A DNA stretch of 64,000 nt, taken from positions 868,001 through 932,000 of the forward strand of contig NZ_CP109473.1 in assembly GCF_036227405.1 (NCBI RefSeq), given 5' to 3'. The notes under the pieces were generated by a model. The model saw nothing but the letters and a program-made list of their open reading frames with translations. It had not been told where the DNA came from and made no database searches. This document shows, piece by piece, positions 13,650-20,601 of the stretch. Within the stretch, counting starts at the first letter, position 1. Every line of letters starts with the position of its first letter. This DNA is from Streptomyces sp. NBC_01460. GTDB taxonomy: Bacteria; Actinomycetota; Actinomycetes; Streptomycetales; Streptomycetaceae. The translations under genes were made by a program, and so were the position numbers.

Positions 13650-14353
13650 AAGGCATCACGATGGTAGCGCCGCGTGTCGCCCGAGAGAAGGGTGGTGCAG
13701 TCGTTTCATCGGATGAATACGGGGCCACGCCGTGAGGGCCCGGTCGACGGCCCCCGCTCGACCCCGCCCCGGCCGCACCGGACAAGGGCACCCTGGGGGC
13801 GGCGACGCCACACCCTCTCCACACAACCGGAGACGGTGTGATGCAAAGGGCACGCCATCCAGGAAAGCGCTTCATAAATACGCCGCCCATTCACGGGCGA
13901 CCCGCACAGGGAAATAGAGCCGTGTTCATCTTTTACAATGGCGTGAATATCGATACCTTCCGAGCTTTCCGTGTCGGCCCGCAGCACCCGCCCCTGGAAT
14001 TGCGATGGCCCGCTCGGGGAAACCTGCACACGGCGTGCGCACACCGATCACGCACCTCGGTGCGAAATGCCAGTTCCGAGGGGGTCCGAGGGGTGATTGG
14101 GGCGGGACTGCCCCACTTGGGGGGTGTGGAGGTGCGACGGCGCGGAATTCATCCGGTGAAGCTCGTGAAGAACCTGCTGCCGCGGAATGAACACTTCTGC
14201 ACGCAATCCGATTCCAGCGGGCCGACAACCACAGATCCGCCGCAGTTCGATTGGCTGTACGAGGCACAGGCGTGCTTTGATCCTGGCCCATACGGAGGCC
14301 GCAGCACAGGTTTCCGTATATAGGCAATTTCCATACGAAGGGCAGCGCTCATC
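13650..14353. other. Long gene-free region upstream of the peptide precursor
   Basis: About 700 bases with no convincing gene. Base composition is locally more AT-rich than the surroundings (13860-13960 and 14300-14340). It holds a TTCATC-G-GATGAA inverted repeat at 13705-13717, an AAGCGCTT core at 13865-13872 and a TATATA at 14317-14322 that could be a -10 for the precursor gene. Reading frames crossing it lack coding character. Confidence 0.5.
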
Positions 14354-14581
14354 ATGAACTACACCCCCCAGGTCGAGACCGCCGAGATCTCCGACAGCGA
14401 CCTCGACAACGTCGCGGGCGGCCTCGTCGGCAACGTGCTCGGCAACGTCACGGGCACCGTCGAGGGCATCGTCCCGGTCGCCGGCGTCGTCGGCTCGGTC
14501 ACCGGTCTCGTCGAGGGTGCCACCGGCGTGAACACCGGCGCGGTCACCGGCCTGGCCACCGGCCTCACCGCCGGTCTCTGA
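14354..14581 (+). CDS. Double-glycine-leader precursor of an exported glycine-zipper peptide
   Basis: A 75-residue precursor. Residues 1-23 form an acidic leader ending EISDSDLDNVAGG, the double-glycine signature cut by C39 peptidases. The 52-residue core has no Cys, Lys, Arg or aromatic residue and only two Glu. Glycines recur every fourth position in three blocks (core positions 3, 7, 11, 15; then 24, 28, 32; then 35, 39, 43, 47, 51), a near-perfect GxxxG zipper, with the pair VTGTVEG and VTGLVEG repeated inside. The exporter genes for such leaders follow directly. Absence of Cys and of any LanM or cyclodehydratase gene argues against a lanthipeptide. Activity (bacteriocin, pore, fibre, surface-active peptide) is unknown. 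Confidence 0.85.
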   Translation: MNYTPQVETAEISDSDLDNVAGGLVGNVLGNVTGTVEGIVPVAGVVGSVTGLVEGATGVNTGAVTGLATGLTAGL

Positions 14582-14598
14582 GACACGGCAGCACCCCG

Positions 14599-14632
14599 CC
14601 GAGCCCCGGAACCCGTCGGTTCCGGGGCTCGG
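14599..14632 (+). terminator. Stem-loop between precursor and exporter genes
   Basis: CCGAGCCCCGGAAC pairs perfectly with its complement across a 6-base loop, 18 bases after the precursor stop and about 30 bases before the HlyD-like start. The position suits partial termination, giving more precursor mRNA than exporter mRNA, as is common in secreted-peptide operons. It could also be a 3' mRNA stabiliser. Confidence 0.8.
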
Positions 14633-14664
14633 TGCCGACCGCTGACAGGTGAGGGAAGAGTTCC

Positions 14665-15471
14665 GTGCAGTTCCGCCAACAGGCCCTTTCCAAGCTGCAG
14701 TCGCCCGAACAGCTCGACCTGCCGGTGCGCTTCGCCCGCCCGCAGGGCCTGCTCGTCCTCTGCGTCACCGTCGCCGTGATGGCGGCGGCGTGCTTCTGGG
14801 CCGTGACCGGTTCGGTCGCCAGCACCCTCGACGCGCCGGGCATCCTCACGCACTCCCGCGGCAGTTACCTCCTGCAGAGCCCGGTCGCCGGGCAGATCAC
14901 CGAGGTGCTCGCCGACGAGGGCGAGACACTGCCCCGGAACTCCCCCCTGCTCAAGGTCCGTACGGACACCGGCGAACGCGTCGTCCGTACGATCGACGCG
15001 GGCCGGCTCACCTCCGTGACGGCCACCATCGGCGCGGTGGTCACCACCGGCGCGGACGTGGCGAGTGTCGAACGGATCGACGGTGCCGACGACCCGCTGG
15101 TCGCCCTGCTGTACGTCTCGGGCAGCGGTGCGGCCTCGGTCCCGGTGGGAGCCTCCGTCGACCTCACCGTCCAGTCCGTCCCGGCCCAGCAGTACGGGGT
15201 GCTCCGCGGCAAGGTGGCGGCGGTCGGCAGGGCGGCGCAGACGCAGCAGCAGATCACCCGCTTCCTCGGCGACGCCCAGCTCGGCGAGCAGTTCTCCGCG
15301 CACGGGCGTCCGCTGGCGGTCCTGGTGAGGATCGAGCGTTCCGGCTCCACCGAGTCCGGCTACCGGTGGTCCTCGGCCGAGGGTCCGCCGTACGCGATCG
15401 GCTCCATGACCCTGGCCTCCGGCTCCGTCCGTCTCGCCGACCAGCGCCCCGTCGATTGGCTGCTCCCGTGA
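14665..15471 (+). CDS. HlyD-like membrane-fusion protein of an NHLM-type peptide exporter
   Basis: A 268-residue protein with GTG start and GAGGGAAGAG ribosome site. A short cytoplasmic N-terminus precedes one membrane segment (LLVLCVTVAVMAAACFWAV, about residues 29-47). The external part holds a lipoyl/biotinyl-like hammerhead (SPVAGQITEVLADEGETLPRNSPLLKV) and a beta-barrel-like tail. This is the layout of the secretion protein of NHLM bacteriocin systems. The stop overlaps the start of the peptidase-ABC gene (GTGA), so the two are co-translated. Confidence 0.85.
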   Translation: MQFRQQALSKLQSPEQLDLPVRFARPQGLLVLCVTVAVMAAACFWAVTGSVASTLDAPGILTHSRGSYLLQSPVAGQITEVLADEGETLPRNSPLLKVRTDTGERVVRTIDAGRLTSVTATIGAVVTTGADVASVERIDGADDPLVALLYVSGSGAASVPVGASVDLTVQSVPAQQYGVLRGKVAAVGRAAQTQQQITRFLGDAQLGEQFSAHGRPLAVLVRIERSGSTESGYRWSSAEGPPYAIGSMTLASGSVRLADQRPVDWLLP

Positions 15472-17741
15472 CCGCACCCCACCCGTCCCCCGCCGCCCAG
15501 CAGCTTCCCCCGCCCGGCCGCGGCAGGCACCGCCCGGAAGGCGCTCCGGGCACCAGGCGGCGTTCGCGTCCCGCTCCGAAGCCCGGGCGGACGAAGACCG
15601 TACGCACCCCCACCGTGCTCCAGATGGAGGCCCTGGAGTGCGGTGCCGCGTCGCTGGCGATGGTGCTCGGCCACCACGGACGCCATGTGCCGCTGGAGGA
15701 GCTCCGGATCGCCTGCGGCGTCTCGCGTGACGGCTCGCGCGCGAGCAACGTGCTGAAGGCAGCCCGTGGTTACGGCCTCCAGGCCAAGGGCATGCAGATG
15801 GAACCCGCCGCCCTCGCGGAGGTCCAGGCACCCGCGATCCTGTTCTGGGAGTTCAACCACTACGTCGTGTACGACGGAACGGGACGCCGCCTCGGCCGGA
15901 GCGGGGTGTACATCAACGACCCCGACAAGGGGCGCCGGTTCGTGCCCGCCGAGGACTTCGACACCAGTTTCACGGGGGTCGTCCTCGTCCTCGAACCCGG
16001 CGAGGACTTCCGGCGTGGCGGCCGTGGGCCCGGCGTCATGTCCGCACTGCCGGCCCGGCTGCGCGGCACCACGGGCACGATGCTCGTGGCCCTGCTCGCC
16101 AGCCTGCTGCTGGTGGCCGTCGGGGCGACGCTCCCGGCCCTGAGCCGCACCTATATCGACATGTTCATGATTGGTGAACAGACCTCGCTGCTGGGCGTGC
16201 TGTTCGCCGCCATGGGCACGACTGTCGCCCTCACCGTTGTCCTGACCTGGCTCCAGCAGGCCAATCTGCTGCGCGGGCGCATCATCTCGTCCACGCTCGG
16301 AAGCGCGCGCTTCTTCCGCCATCTGCTCCGGCTGCCGGTCACCTTCTTCTCACAGCGCAGTCCCGCCGATCTCGTCCAGCGCCTGCAGTCGAACGACGCG
16401 GTGGCCGAGACGCTCGCCAGGGATCTCACCGCGGCGGGCGTGGACGGCATCGTCGTCCTCCTCTACGCGTTCCTGCTGTGGACGTACGATCCGCAGCTGA
16501 CCGTCATCGGCGTGGGGATCGCGCTGCTCAACGTCGTCGCCATGCGCATCGTCGTGCGGATGCGGGCCACCGGGACCCAGAAGCTGCGGGCCGACAGCGC
16601 ACGGCTGACGAACACCTCGTACACCGGTCTCCAGCTGATCGAGACGATGAAGGCCACCGGCGGCGAGGACGGGTACTTCCGCCGCTGGGCGGGACAGCAC
16701 GCGACGACGCTGGAGCAGCAGCAGCGTCTCGGGGTGCCGAGCGCCTGGCTGGGCGTCGTCGCTCCCGCCCTCGCCACGTTCAACAGCGCGGTGATCCTGT
16801 GGATCGGCGGGCTGCGGGCCGTCGAGGGCCACCTCTCGATCGGTCTGCTGGTCGCCTTCCAGGCGCTGGTCACCCGCTTCACCGCACCGGTCACCCGGCT
16901 CAACGGGGTGGCCGGCCGGGTCCAGGACTTCGCCGCCGACGTGGCACGCCTCAAGGACGTCGAGAACTTCCCCGTCGACGCGCTGTACTCCCGTCCCGAA
17001 CCGGCAGCGAGCACCCGCCGTCTCAAGGGCCATGTGACGCTGGAGGACATCACCTTCGGCTACAGCCCTCTCGACAAGCCGCTGCTCACCGGCTTCTCCC
17101 TCTCGGTGGGGCCGGGGCAGCAGGTGGCGCTCGTGGGCGGTTCCGGCAGCGGCAAGTCGACGGTCTCGCGGCTCATCTCGGGGCTCTACAGCCCGTGGGA
17201 GGGCACGATCCGCATCGACGGGCAGCGTCTGGAGGACATCCCCAGGGGCGCCCTGGCCGCGTCGGTGTCCTTCGTCGACCAGGAGGTCTTCCTCTTCGAG
17301 GGGACGGTCAGGGACAACGTGGCGCTGTGGGACCCCTCGGTCCCCGACGAGGCCGTGGCCGAGGCCCTGCGGGACGCCGCGCTGTACGACGTCGTCGCCC
17401 GGCGGCCCCGCGGCATCCACAGCCGGGTGGAGCAGGACGGCAGGAACTTCTCCGGCGGGCAGCGCCAGCGCCTGGAGATCGCCCGGGCCCTCGTGCGCCG
17501 CCCCAGCATCCTGGTCCTGGACGAGGTCACCAGCGCGCTGGACGCCGAGACGGAGCGGATCATCATCGACAACCTGCGGCGGCGCGGCTGCGCCTGTGTC
17601 GTGATCGCGCACCGGCTGAGCACCGTCCGCGACAGCGACGAGATCGTGGTCCTGGACCACGGGACGGTCGTGGAGCGCGGCCGTCACGAGAATCTGGTGG
17701 CCGCCGGAGGCCCCTACGCCGACCTGGTCAGGGAGCACTGA
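15468..17741 (+). CDS. NHLM-type ABC exporter with N-terminal C39 leader peptidase
   Basis: A 757-residue fusion. After a basic, proline-rich 45-residue N-terminus comes a C39 peptidase: catalytic Cys58 in ECGAASL, His in FNHYVVYDG and Asp in INDPDKG. Membrane segments follow from about residue 190 to 470. The C-terminal nucleotide-binding domain has Walker A GGSGSGKST, signature FSGGQRQR and Walker B ILVLDEVTSALD. It should cut the double-glycine leader of the precursor encoded at 14354 and export the core peptide. All three peptidase residues are present, so it looks active. Confidence 0.93.
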   Translation: MTAPHPSPAAQQLPPPGRGRHRPEGAPGTRRRSRPAPKPGRTKTVRTPTVLQMEALECGAASLAMVLGHHGRHVPLEELRIACGVSRDGSRASNVLKAARGYGLQAKGMQMEPAALAEVQAPAILFWEFNHYVVYDGTGRRLGRSGVYINDPDKGRRFVPAEDFDTSFTGVVLVLEPGEDFRRGGRGPGVMSALPARLRGTTGTMLVALLASLLLVAVGATLPALSRTYIDMFMIGEQTSLLGVLFAAMGTTVALTVVLTWLQQANLLRGRIISSTLGSARFFRHLLRLPVTFFSQRSPADLVQRLQSNDAVAETLARDLTAAGVDGIVVLLYAFLLWTYDPQLTVIGVGIALLNVVAMRIVVRMRATGTQKLRADSARLTNTSYTGLQLIETMKATGGEDGYFRRWAGQHATTLEQQQRLGVPSAWLGVVAPALATFNSAVILWIGGLRAVEGHLSIGLLVAFQALVTRFTAPVTRLNGVAGRVQDFAADVARLKDVENFPVDALYSRPEPAASTRRLKGHVTLEDITFGYSPLDKPLLTGFSLSVGPGQQVALVGGSGSGKSTVSRLISGLYSPWEGTIRIDGQRLEDIPRGALAASVSFVDQEVFLFEGTVRDNVALWDPSVPDEAVAEALRDAALYDVVARRPRGIHSRVEQDGRNFSGGQRQRLEIARALVRRPSILVLDEVTSALDAETERIIIDNLRRRGCACVVIAHRLSTVRDSDEIVVLDHGTVVERGRHENLVAAGGPYADLVREH

Positions 17742-17742
17742 C

Positions 17743-20601
17743 GTGACATCCGCACATCCCGTCGCGGGCCCGGAGGCTCCTGGCCAGGACCCGGTCATCG
17801 GCGCTCTGGGAACCCTCGGCGGACCGGTCGACTGCACCGGGCTGCGGAGCCTGTCCCTGGAAGGGCCCCAGGTCCTGTGGCTGGTCGTGGGCGGCGCCCT
17901 CGACCTGTTCGCGGTGGACGCGCTGGAGCAGGGGCACTGGCACTTCCTGGGCAGGCTCGAACCGGGGACGCTCGTCCTGGGTCCGGTCGAGGGCCCGCAG
18001 CACACCCTGGTCGGCCGGCCGCTCCAGGAGTGCGTGCTGCGGCGGATCCCGCTGCGTGAGCTGTACCGGCCGGACTACGCCGACCAGGGGGCGTACGAGG
18101 CGCAGTACCGCAGCCGTTACGACACCGGGGACGCGACGCTCAGCCTGCTGGAGCACGCCTTCTCGCTCGGCGTGGGCCGGAGCCGGCGGGTGCTGTTCGA
18201 GGCCCCGCTGGACGGGCGGACCACCTTCGACGGGGCGGTGGGCGACGACGACGTCCTGTGGCTTCCGGTGTCGCCGGGCAGTGTGCAGTACGGCGCCGCG
18301 TTCAGCGCCGAGGCGGCGGGGGACCTGCTGGTCGACCCGTCGATGTGGCAGGGGATGGTCAACCAGCAGTACCGCCTGCTGTCGGCGCTGGACCGCTGGA
18401 TCGAACAGCTGGAGCGTGCGCACGAGGACCGGACCGCGGCCGGCATGAAGGCGGGCGAGGCCGTCCGCAAGGAGGCCGACCAGGCGCTGCTGACCTCGAT
18501 CGGCCGGTCCGGCAGGGGTGCCTCGCGTGCGACGGGCGCCTCGGACGACGCGGTGTACGCGGCGTGCCGTCTGGTGGCCCGGGACTCCGGGATCGTCCTG
18601 GCGGAGCCCTCGTCGGGCGGGGCGGTGAGCGACCGGATCGACCCGGTCGAGCGGGTCGCGGTCGCCTCGCGCGTCCGTACCCGCGCGGTCCGGCTGGCCG
18701 GGCGCTGGTGGCGGGAGGACTCCGGTCCGCTGGTGGGTCACCGCGCCGCGTCCGGGGCGCCGGTCGCCCTTCTCTGGCGCCGCGGACGCTACGAGGCGGT
18801 CAACCCTCTGACGGGACGGCGCAGCCGGATCGACCGCGCCTCGGCCGAGGAGTTCGAGGAGCGCGCCGTGATGTTCTACAGGCCGCTGCCGGAGCAGCCG
18901 CTGTCCAGGAGGCAGTTGCTGCGCTTCGGTCTGTTCGGGACCCGTGGCGACCTGCGGAAGCTGGTGCTCGCCGGTCTGGTGACGGTCGGGCTGGGTTCCC
19001 TGGTGCCCCTCGCGACCGGCAGGGTGCTCGGCGTGTACGTGCCCACCGCCCAGACCTCCCTCATCGTGCAGGTGTCGCTGGCCGTGATCATCGCCGGTGT
19101 CGTCTCGGCCGCCTTCATGCTGCTCCAGAACCTCACGATCCTGCGGATGGAGGGGCGTATCGAGAGCACGCTCCAGCCCGCGGTCTGGGACCGTCTGCTG
19201 AGGCTGCCGACGAAGTTCTTCACCGAGCGGTCCACGGGAGAGCTGGCGAGCGCGGCGATGGGGGTGAGTGCCATCCGCCGGGTGCTCTCCGGCACCGGGC
19301 CGGTCGTGGTGCAGGCGGGCACTCTCGGGGCGGTGAACCTGGGCCTGCTGCTCTGGTTCAGCGTCCCGCTGGCTCTCACCGCCGTCGCGATGCTGATGGT
19401 CATCGCCGGGGTGTTCCTCACCATGGGCATGTGGGAGCTCCGGTGGCAGCGCCGGCTGGTCGAGCTGGGGAACAAGCTCAACAACCAGGCGTTCCAGACG
19501 CTTCGGGGACTGCCCAAGCTGCGGGTCGCGGCGGCGGAGAGTTTCGCCTACGGGGCGTGGGCGTCGGAGTTCGCACGCAGCCGTGAGCTGCAGAAGCGGG
19601 CGGGCCGGATCAAGAACCTCACAACGGTCCTCAACGCGGTCTACCTTCCGCTGTGTTCGCTGGTCATCTTCGTCCTGCTGGCCGGCCCCGCGCGCGGGTC
19701 CCTGACGGCCGGTGAGTTCCTGACCTTCAACACGTCCGTGACGATGCTGCTCACGGCCGTCACCCAGCTGACGGGTGCCTTCGTGTCCGCCGCTGCGGTG
19801 CTGCCGATGTTCGAGCAGATCAAGCCGGTGCTCGACGAGGCACCCGAGGTGCGCGGTGCCAGCACCCAGCCGGGCGAGCTGACCGGGGAGATCGAGGCGA
19901 GAGGCGTGACCTTCCGCTACTCCGACGACGGTCCCGTCGTCCTCGACGAGGTCTCGCTGACCGTGCGGCCGGGCGAGTTCGTGGCGATCGTGGGCCCCAG
20001 CGGGTGCGGCAAGTCGACGCTGCTGAGGATGCTCATCGGCTTCGACAGGCCGGTCTCGGGCAGTGTCCTGTACGACGGGCAGGATCTGACGTCACTCGAC
20101 CAGGCGGCCGTGCGCCGTCAGTGCGGGGTCGTCCTGCAGAACGCCCAGCCGCTGTCCGGGTCGATCCTGGACTGCATCTGCGGCGCCGAGGTCTTCACCC
20201 AGGAGGAGGCGTGGGAGGCCGCCGCCATGGCGGGGCTGGCCGAGGACATCAAGCGCATGCCGATGGGGCTGCACACGATGATCTCCGGGGGCGGCTCGAT
20301 CTCCGGCGGGCAGCGCCAGCGGCTGATGATCGCCCAGGCTCTCGTCCGGCGTCCCCGTGTGCTCTTCTTCGACGAGGCGACCAGCGCACTGGACAACGAG
20401 ACCCAGCGCACCGTGATCGAGAGCACCAAGTCCCTGCGGGCCACCCGGGTCGTGATCGCGCACCGGCTGTCCACGGTCATGGACGCCGACCGGGTCGTCG
20501 TCATGGCCGACGGCCGTGTCGTGCAGGAAGGGCCGCCGGCCGTGCTCCTCGCGGACACGGGCGGGCAGCTCCACGAGCTGGTCCGGCGCCAGATGAGCTG
20601 A
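17743..20601 (+). CDS. Second NHLM-type ABC transporter, permease/ATPase
   Basis: A 952-residue protein with a GTG start one base after the previous stop. About 390 N-terminal residues have no membrane segments and include a beta-rich, cyclic-nucleotide-binding-like stretch, as in the second ABC protein of NHLM bacteriocin systems. A six-helix exporter domain follows (about 400-690). The nucleotide-binding domain has Walker [10 protein letters not shown], signature ISGGQRQR and Walker B VLFFDEATSALD. It has no peptidase domain. It likely works with, or dimerises with, the C39-containing exporter. Confidence 0.9.
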   Translation: MTSAHPVAGPEAPGQDPVIGALGTLGGPVDCTGLRSLSLEGPQVLWLVVGGALDLFAVDALEQGHWHFLGRLEPGTLVLGPVEGPQHTLVGRPLQECVLRRIPLRELYRPDYADQGAYEAQYRSRYDTGDATLSLLEHAFSLGVGRSRRVLFEAPLDGRTTFDGAVGDDDVLWLPVSPGSVQYGAAFSAEAAGDLLVDPSMWQGMVNQQYRLLSALDRWIEQLERAHEDRTAAGMKAGEAVRKEADQALLTSIGRSGRGASRATGASDDAVYAACRLVARDSGIVLAEPSSGGAVSDRIDPVERVAVASRVRTRAVRLAGRWWREDSGPLVGHRAASGAPVALLWRRGRYEAVNPLTGRRSRIDRASAEEFEERAVMFYRPLPEQPLSRRQLLRFGLFGTRGDLRKLVLAGLVTVGLGSLVPLATGRVLGVYVPTAQTSLIVQVSLAVIIAGVVSAAFMLLQNLTILRMEGRIESTLQPAVWDRLLRLPTKFFTERSTGELASAAMGVSAIRRVLSGTGPVVVQAGTLGAVNLGLLLWFSVPLALTAVAMLMVIAGVFLTMGMWELRWQRRLVELGNKLNNQAFQTLRGLPKLRVAAAESFAYGAWASEFARSRELQKRAGRIKNLTTVLNAVYLPLCSLVIFVLLAGPARGSLTAGEFLTFNTSVTMLLTAVTQLTGAFVSAAAVLPMFEQIKPVLDEAPEVRGASTQPGELTGEIEARGVTFRYSDDGPVVLDEVSLTVRPGEFVAIVGPSGCGKSTLLRMLIGFDRPVSGSVLYDGQDLTSLDQAAVRRQCGVVLQNAQPLSGSILDCICGAEVFTQEEAWEAAAMAGLAEDIKRMPMGLHTMISGGGSISGGQRQRLMIAQALVRRPRVLFFDEATSALDNETQRTVIESTKSLRATRVVIAHRLSTVMDADRVVVMADGRVVQEGPPAVLLADTGGQLHELVRRQMS

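Follow-up and report, generated by a model that had tools for sequence, protein, structure and literature searches.

What does a streptomycete export when a small glycine-rich peptide gene stands directly before a complete peptide-export system and no modification enzyme adjoins it? This question is raised by a locus of Streptomyces sp. NBC_01460, found in a stretch of 64,000 nucleotides (positions 868001-932000 of contig 1, in a genome of 8.8 Mb), which was analysed as a whole and is called the window here. The locus consists of a four-gene operon preceded by a promoter-like element. The answer favored here, at a probability of about 0.5, is that the operon makes and exports a small hydrophobic peptide and that the same exporter would serve other co-regulated, unmodified peptides, perhaps at the hyphal surface. 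This reading is based on sequence, namely on the gene order, the co-occurrence of peptide and exporter, the conserved chemistry of the core peptide, its helical periodicity, a common leader, and a common upstream element. The features of the locus are as follows.

14249-14283, + strand: bipartite promoter-like element (GATTGG at 14249-14254, a spacer of 16 nucleotides (nt), and CGTGCTTTGATCC at 14271-14283)
14354-14581, + strand: precursor peptide, 75 amino acids (aa); the leader is residues 1-23, ending in GlyGly, and the core is residues 24-75
14665-15471, + strand: HlyD-like adaptor, 268 aa, with a GTG start; TIGR03794 at 160.3 bits (cut-off 156.2)
15468-17741, + strand: C39-peptidase ABC exporter; TIGR03796 at 1009 bits (cut-off 853.3) and Peptidase_C39 at E 2.8e-33
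17743-20601, + strand: second NHLM-type ABC protein (ABC2); TIGR03797 at 889 bits (cut-off 709.4), over residues 268-951

The operon and its distribution

Translation confirmed the gene product described in the earlier note, a 23-aa double-glycine leader followed by a 52-aa core devoid of Cys, Lys, Arg, and aromatic residues. Is this precursor gene real? I collected 93 loci with a HlyD match, 51 of them retrieved via the precursor and 42 via the exporter (L093, which lies at a contig end and has no HlyD, was left out). A precursor gene lies upstream of HlyD in all 93, giving 85 distinct precursors, and over 149 pairs the leader has a ratio of nonsynonymous to synonymous substitution (dN/dS) of 0.36, the core one of 0.51. 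Thus, the precursor gene looks real. The window precursor itself has no NCBIfam match at E<=0.1, and its Pfam matches all stay below their cut-offs.

The three downstream proteins, HlyD, C39-ABC, and ABC2, all score above the curated cut-offs that NCBIfam sets for the NHLM export triad, in agreement with the earlier assignment. These scores mark the exporter as an ordinary triad member. The Cys, His, and Asp motifs of the C39 domain, which had been described as intact, are directly legible in the window protein and are present in 61 of 61 loci (anywhere in the three-frame translation). The HlyD protein is short; the better of its two matching stretches aligns residues 107-268 with positions 256-417 of the 421-position TIGR03794 profile, so that much of the usual HlyD middle seems to be missing. 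ABC2 has a 267-aa N-terminal extension (17743-18546) before its TIGR03797 match, with no above-cut-off Pfam family among the 25 of 26 matches listed.

Are the peptide and the exporter found together in other species? The genus sample comprised 295 genomes, which were searched with the window precursor (E<=0.01), with the first 268 residues of ABC2 (its N-terminal domain), and with a profile, A1, built from the 85 distinct precursors (E<=0.001). Matches were found in 210, 218, and 218 genomes, respectively. The exporter and the A1 match occur together in 216 genomes, the exporter alone in two, the profile match alone in two, and neither in 75. Three of the four discordant genomes (G119, G151, and G001) are cut by contig ends, while the fourth, G289, retains only a relic of ABC2. 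In this relic (L186, 2870-5079) the ABC2 gene is broken and partly deleted, and no match to HlyD, C39-ABC, or the precursor was found; A1 detects no leader peptide anywhere in that genome. The window precursor query missed 13 exporter-positive genomes, of which A1 recovers 11; six of these genomes, retrieved through the position of the exporter, all have a divergent precursor before HlyD. Conversely, five of the 210 genomes matched by the precursor query, with weak matches, lack the exporter, and three of these (G075, G203, and G223) give no A1 match.

A related precursor is present in 22 named records, of which 21 belong to Streptomyces and one to Actinacidiphila. In a family-level sample, A1 matches were found in 74 of 150 genomes and nine of 17 genera; this count concerns the peptide profile only, the exporter having been confirmed in Actinacidiphila (L040). 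In a class-level sample, 24 of 296 genomes have a match, 23 of them in the genus Streptomyces, with one weak match elsewhere. Judged by these family- and class-level counts, the peptide family does not seem to extend beyond Streptomycetaceae in the samples analysed.

The neighborhood of the operon varies. Flanks were surveyed at 58 loci (55 with at least 4 kb upstream and 41 with at least 4 kb downstream) for open reading frames (ORFs) more than 500 nt from the operon. The best shared window ORF of at least 100 aa recurs in nine of the 58 loci (a count that includes the window); other ORF families of at least 180 aa occur in eight loci at most. As a cassette, the four genes move through differing neighborhoods. 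The earlier note had found no modification enzyme beside the locus and had named a conserved one beside orthologous loci as what would refute its reading; among window ORFs of at least 100 aa and other ORFs of at least 180 aa in these flanks, no such enzyme recurs. Nor does any neighbor of at least 100 aa that could serve as an immunity gene, although such genes may fall below that size. Leaders of the NHLP and Nif11 types, whose absence had also been remarked on, were not found among the 17 NCBIfam and 16 Pfam families matched by the 85 precursors at E<=0.1.

Chemistry and helical pattern of the core

What is conserved in the exported part? In the 85 distinct precursors, the core is 42-62 residues long (mean 51.5) and is dominated by Gly (21.3 per cent), Val (20.7), Thr (14.0), Ala (11.4), and Leu (11.4). 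Cys, Lys, Trp, and Met are absent from every core; Arg occurs in 10, Phe in two, Tyr in one, and His in 20. All 85 carry a net charge between 0 and -4, and 74 end in Gly-Leu. Among the closer cores, aligned in 26 rows, the positions L1, P18, V19, V30, G35, N37, and G47 are invariant. The C-terminal half of the core is the more constrained, with a dN/dS of 0.37 compared with 0.68 for the N-terminal half (the same 149 pairs).

The earlier note regarded the core as a glycine zipper. The window core, with a mean hydropathy of 1.08, contains two Glu and 13 Gly, the latter at core positions 3, 7, 11, 15, 21, 24, 28, 32, 35, 39, 43, 47, and 51; the three blocks of four, three, and five glycines are as described, and Gly21 is an additional one. 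Nine Gly pairs are four residues apart compared with 2.8 expected from shuffled sequences (p about 5e-5). Gly pairs are over-represented at distances 4, 7, 8, and 11 and under-represented at 2, 5, and 6. In the family, an excess of pairs at distance 4 reaches significance in 54 of the 85 cores. In the 13 Gly columns of the window, 57 of 62 non-Gly letters are Ala or Ser; therefore, it is small size, not glycine itself, that is conserved. What did not stand is a strict glycine zipper under selection. Conservation is 0.84 in Gly-majority columns and 0.83 in the other core columns (p 0.40, 29 gapless precursors), the dN/dS is 0.56 at Gly codons and 0.50 elsewhere, and 23 of the 85 cores have three GxxxG motifs or fewer. 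As for the Pfam glycine-zipper families, the window precursor reaches 13.5 bits for Gly-zipper_OmpA against a gathering score of 27, and at E<=0.1 the OmpA type matches three and the YMGG type two of the 85 precursors (best E 0.0025).

The periodicity of the core was analysed with 19 representatives less than 65% identical to each other, and z was calculated against shuffles that keep the composition. The contrast of Gly with Val/Leu/Ile has its power peak at 98-100 degrees per residue, as in an alpha helix, with a z of 16, a value inflated because the 19 representatives are related. The window core alone gives a z of 7.2 at 100 degrees. At 160-180 degrees the same contrast has a z below 0 in the representatives, and beta structure or amyloid-like alternation was rejected as the main pattern. 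A minor alternating component may be present in the core, because Gly alone (a small peak, z 3.3), small residues, and polar residues give z values of 3.3 to 3.9 at 170 degrees and the polar residues of the window core peak at 168 degrees (z 5.8). In the family, the polar peak lies at 148 degrees (z 5.9).

AlphaFold predicted helices at residues 18-36, 43-57, and 61-74 of the precursor and at residues 2-34 and 38-51 of the isolated core. The models are weak (predicted local distance difference test 62 and 66, predicted template modeling score 0.25 and 0.30), and they disagree, since the precursor has three helices with a break near Pro18, while a helix runs through Pro18 in the core. A sequence search of the PDB yielded a single weak hit (E 0.3), at the end of a protein with a Nif11 domain. 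A Kyte-Doolittle mean of at least 1.6 over 19 residues is reached in only 10 of the 85 cores, which leads me to favor helices bound at an interface over simple transmembrane helices.

Peptides with the same leader and the upstream element

Does the exporter serve a single peptide? The earlier note called the system self-contained, which the data do not support. Profile A1 detects additional small genes that lie apart from the exporter and have a nearly identical leader and different cores. Two or more A1 matches are present in 100 of 218 exporter-positive genomes, with 123 extra matches (a rough number, as the counts derive from the best 20 candidates per genome), compared with none of 77 exporter-negative genomes. 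A single match is present in two of the 77 (G001 and G151, two of the genomes cut by contig ends). ABC2 was found above the cut-off in five of 11 genomes checked, one copy each.

The cores of these peptides are of several kinds. The second leader peptide of the NBC_01460 genome (G000:C1:5927114-5927338; L138, L002) lacks Cys, Lys, Arg, and aromatic residues in its 55-residue core; no exporter adjoins it, and a relaxed form of the upstream element described below lies 160 nt before its start. A core kind with an LNPH or LSPH motif was found in G098, G009, G103, and G049, and a kind with one Cys in G026, G009, G007, and G049. One leader peptide (L146 near 6500, G190:C11:194999) has consecutive His-Gly-His repeats in the core and possibly binds metal, and another in the same genome (L154 near 6450, G190:C11:113452) has a Gly-Leu-Pro repeat. 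Around 18 other leader peptides, no neighbor family extends beyond pairs of loci, apart from an ORF at the peptide itself (three loci). Four of the pair-shared families link loci with different cores, and ten neighbors of such peptides are miscellaneous by Pfam.

How are these scattered genes connected? A strict box, TGCTTTGATC, was found with at most one mismatch in 76 of the 93 exporter loci, 75-148 nt before the start codon. A relaxed box, fitted on these 93 loci themselves, lies upstream of 92 of the 93 precursors compared with eight background matches in the 2.25 million strand-bases that these loci comprise. L098 lacks it, and L069 is a doubtful case. An upstream TTGG-type arm with a 12-18 nt spacer accompanies the box in 66 loci (16 nt in 62 and 15 nt in four), with one background match in 2.25 million strand-bases. 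The other 27 loci mostly have a variant arm such as GATTAG or GAGTGG, as judged by eye; an arm at a spacer of 17-25 nt was also tried and rejected, being found in only 12 of the 93. In the 8.8 Mb genome of NBC_01460, CGTGCTTTGATCC with at most one mismatch occurs once, at this locus. Between the element and the ribosome site, at 14288-14340, lie related inverted and direct repeats (CCATACGGA, TTTCCGTAT, and TTCCATACGAA), which by eye are kept in the close relatives L003, L005, and L006, partly in L004, and not in distant ones.

The 18 other leader-peptide loci played no part in finding the element. In their 468 kb of strand-bases, 11 of 12 strict-box matches lie within 300 nt upstream of the peptide. 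The relaxed box precedes 13 of the 18, adding the second peptide of the NBC_01460 genome and one more; the 18 are not independent, because they represent about nine core kinds (by eye). When 31 loci were cut around box matches, 20 of the 22 exact boxes stood before a leader peptide, while none of the nine one-mismatch boxes did. As a genome-wide marker the one-mismatch box was rejected for its background, which extends to exporter-negative genomes.

Explanations and known systems

How would the system work under the reading favored here? The C39 domain would cut the precursor after Gly23, and the ABC/HlyD machine would release the core, about 50 residues long. Because no modification enzyme is kept beside the operon, the product is most likely unmodified. 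The core would form helices with a small-residue face (Gly/Ala/Ser) opposite a Val/Leu/Ile face and would act at an interface, the hyphal surface or the membrane, and not serve as a soluble signal. Most likely, this exporter also carries the other same-leader peptides in trans, and since these peptides mostly share the upstream element, the unit of function would be a regulon. A more detailed version is tentative, at somewhat less than an even chance: a Streptomycetaceae regulon in which one NHLM-type C39 exporter, free of enzymes for ribosomally synthesized and post-translationally modified peptides (RiPPs), carries unmodified leader peptides of several unrelated core kinds in trans, mostly under a GATTGG-16 nt-CGTGCTTTGATCC switch read by an alternative sigma factor or an SCO5283-type regulator, and in which the peptides coat or remodel the hyphal surface.

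Part of this is in print, and the novelty suggested by the earlier note, which knew of no characterised peptide of such composition with such an exporter, is not supported. In the available parts of a study of S. coelicolor, SCO0753 is a 77-residue, Cys-free hydrophobic peptide encoded upstream of SCO0754-0756 (HlyD, ABC, ABC), the SCO0753-SCO0756 order is conserved across many Streptomyces, and the authors suggest that SCO0754-0756 exports SCO0753, with a possible effect at the hyphal surface (PMC6629963). SCO0753 is up more than 60-fold in a strain that grows dispersed and has its two-component system activated, and is almost silent in the null mutant of that system (PMC6629963). In excerpts of other reports, SCO0753 is up in an aor1 mutant along with two genes of the SapB cluster (PMC5733086), and sco0756 is up in a strain without polyprenol phosphate mannose synthase (PMC5882110). 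The excerpt of PMC4433243 concerns sco0757 only. No study of the peptide product itself was found in the literature searched. The hydrophobic and probably unmodified nature of the peptide agrees with the earlier note, and the hyphal-surface role, which the note gave as one option, is my best guess from conservation, chemistry, and published expression.

Several results weigh against the favored reading, including the rough number of extra peptides, the non-independence of the 18 loci, the even conservation of the Gly columns, the inflated z values, the polar and 170-degree signals, the weak and conflicting models, and the low hydropathy of most cores, all given above. In addition, the element is absent from five of the 18 other leader peptides, and some cores with the same leader hold Cys, Lys, or His runs. 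The one-mismatch box has a match in at least 268 of the 295 genomes. Two exact boxes in exporter-negative genomes have neither a leader peptide downstream nor a GATTGG arm, and of five further exact boxes away from exporters, among the matches listed, three precede a leader peptide and two do not. In the excerpt seen of one more report, SCO0756 is slightly down in a copper-related mutant (PMC6414726).

Is the peptide instead an unmodified bacteriocin or pore former of the class II type, whose helices insert into competitor membranes by small-xxx-small packing? The locus has the double-glycine leader and the C39 exporter of this class, each of the 85 cores has at least three small-xxx-small motifs, and 21 of the 85 precursors match TIGR01847, a bacteriocin model, weakly (E<=0.1). 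This is unlikely, however. No immunity-like gene of at least 100 aa recurs beside the operon, the locus is present in about three quarters of the genus genomes with its core under purifying selection, and all 85 cores are neutral or anionic rather than cationic.

C39 exporters also carry pheromones, and the exported core or a fragment of it might report the envelope or density state within the species. Weak matches to a pheromone model in 16 of the 85 precursors and the dependence of S. coelicolor expression on the two-component system, as far as the excerpts of that study go (PMC6629963), are consistent with such a signal. Nevertheless, no receptor or kinase recurs beside the operon at the 58 loci, the cores diverge widely among relatives, and a very hydrophobic core of about 50 residues would be unlikely to diffuse. 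A signal is taken here as somewhat less probable than a pore former.

About as improbable as a signal, and also at odds with the favored reading, is a RiPP whose Ser/Thr residues or backbone are modified by an unlinked enzyme as in other NHLM systems: NHLM exporters have been described with modified precursors, Thr and Ser make up about 20% of core residues, and 24 of the 85 precursors match a lantibiotic Pfam model weakly (E<=0.1), but no gene of at least 100 aa recurs beyond nine of the 58 exporter loci, the neighbor families of the 18 other leader-peptide loci stop at pairs, no precursor has an NHLP or Nif11 leader, and, as regards class II lanthipeptides, there is no Cys in any of the 85 cores and no recurring large neighbor that could be a LanM.

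If the regulon reading is true, a single exporter deletion would remove all regulon peptides, so that the question of surface agents besides SapB, chaplins, and polysaccharides would become testable in one strain. It would also mean an NHLM exporter working without RiPP enzymes. The locus is present in 218 of 295 genus genomes, and in S. coelicolor, according to the parts of the study available, it responds strongly to a regulator of hyphal clumping (PMC6629963).

How does the system compare with known ones? SCO0753-SCO0756 resembles the window locus in having a small, hydrophobic, Cys-free peptide directly before HlyD, ABC, and ABC, and is probably the orthologous locus as judged by order, size, and composition. 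Relative to the available parts of that account, the genus-wide co-occurrence counts, the same-leader peptides elsewhere, the shared upstream element, and the helical pattern are additions made here. A cluster of Mycobacterium tusciae has a Gly-rich, Cys-free putative precursor beside LanT and LanB (PMC3951391). It is similar to the window locus in that such a core adjoins a C39-type transporter, and in the portion of the report available it differs by its LanB enzyme, as none recurs beside the window operon.

Of the hydrophobic surface peptides of Streptomyces, SapB is a lanthipeptide with Cys residues, and the chaplins depend on Sec and carry chaplin domains. The window family shares with both a hydrophobic, presumably secreted product and, in the published excerpts, expression tied to morphology; it differs in that none of the 85 cores contains Cys and none of the Pfam families matched by the 85 precursors is a chaplin family. 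With the class II bacteriocins of the double-glycine type it shares the leader type, the C39 exporter, and a probably unmodified core, and it differs from them in the lack of a recurring immunity gene (ORFs of at least 100 aa), in its genus-wide conservation, and in probably having several leader peptides per exporter. With the NHLM/NHLP bacteriocin export triad it shares all three exporter proteins, which score above the cut-offs of TIGR03794, TIGR03796, and TIGR03797, while the leader is neither NHLP nor Nif11 and no enzyme recurs beside the operon. The whole system is a variant of this triad, with another leader family, no recurring enzyme, probably several peptides per exporter, and mostly one switch.

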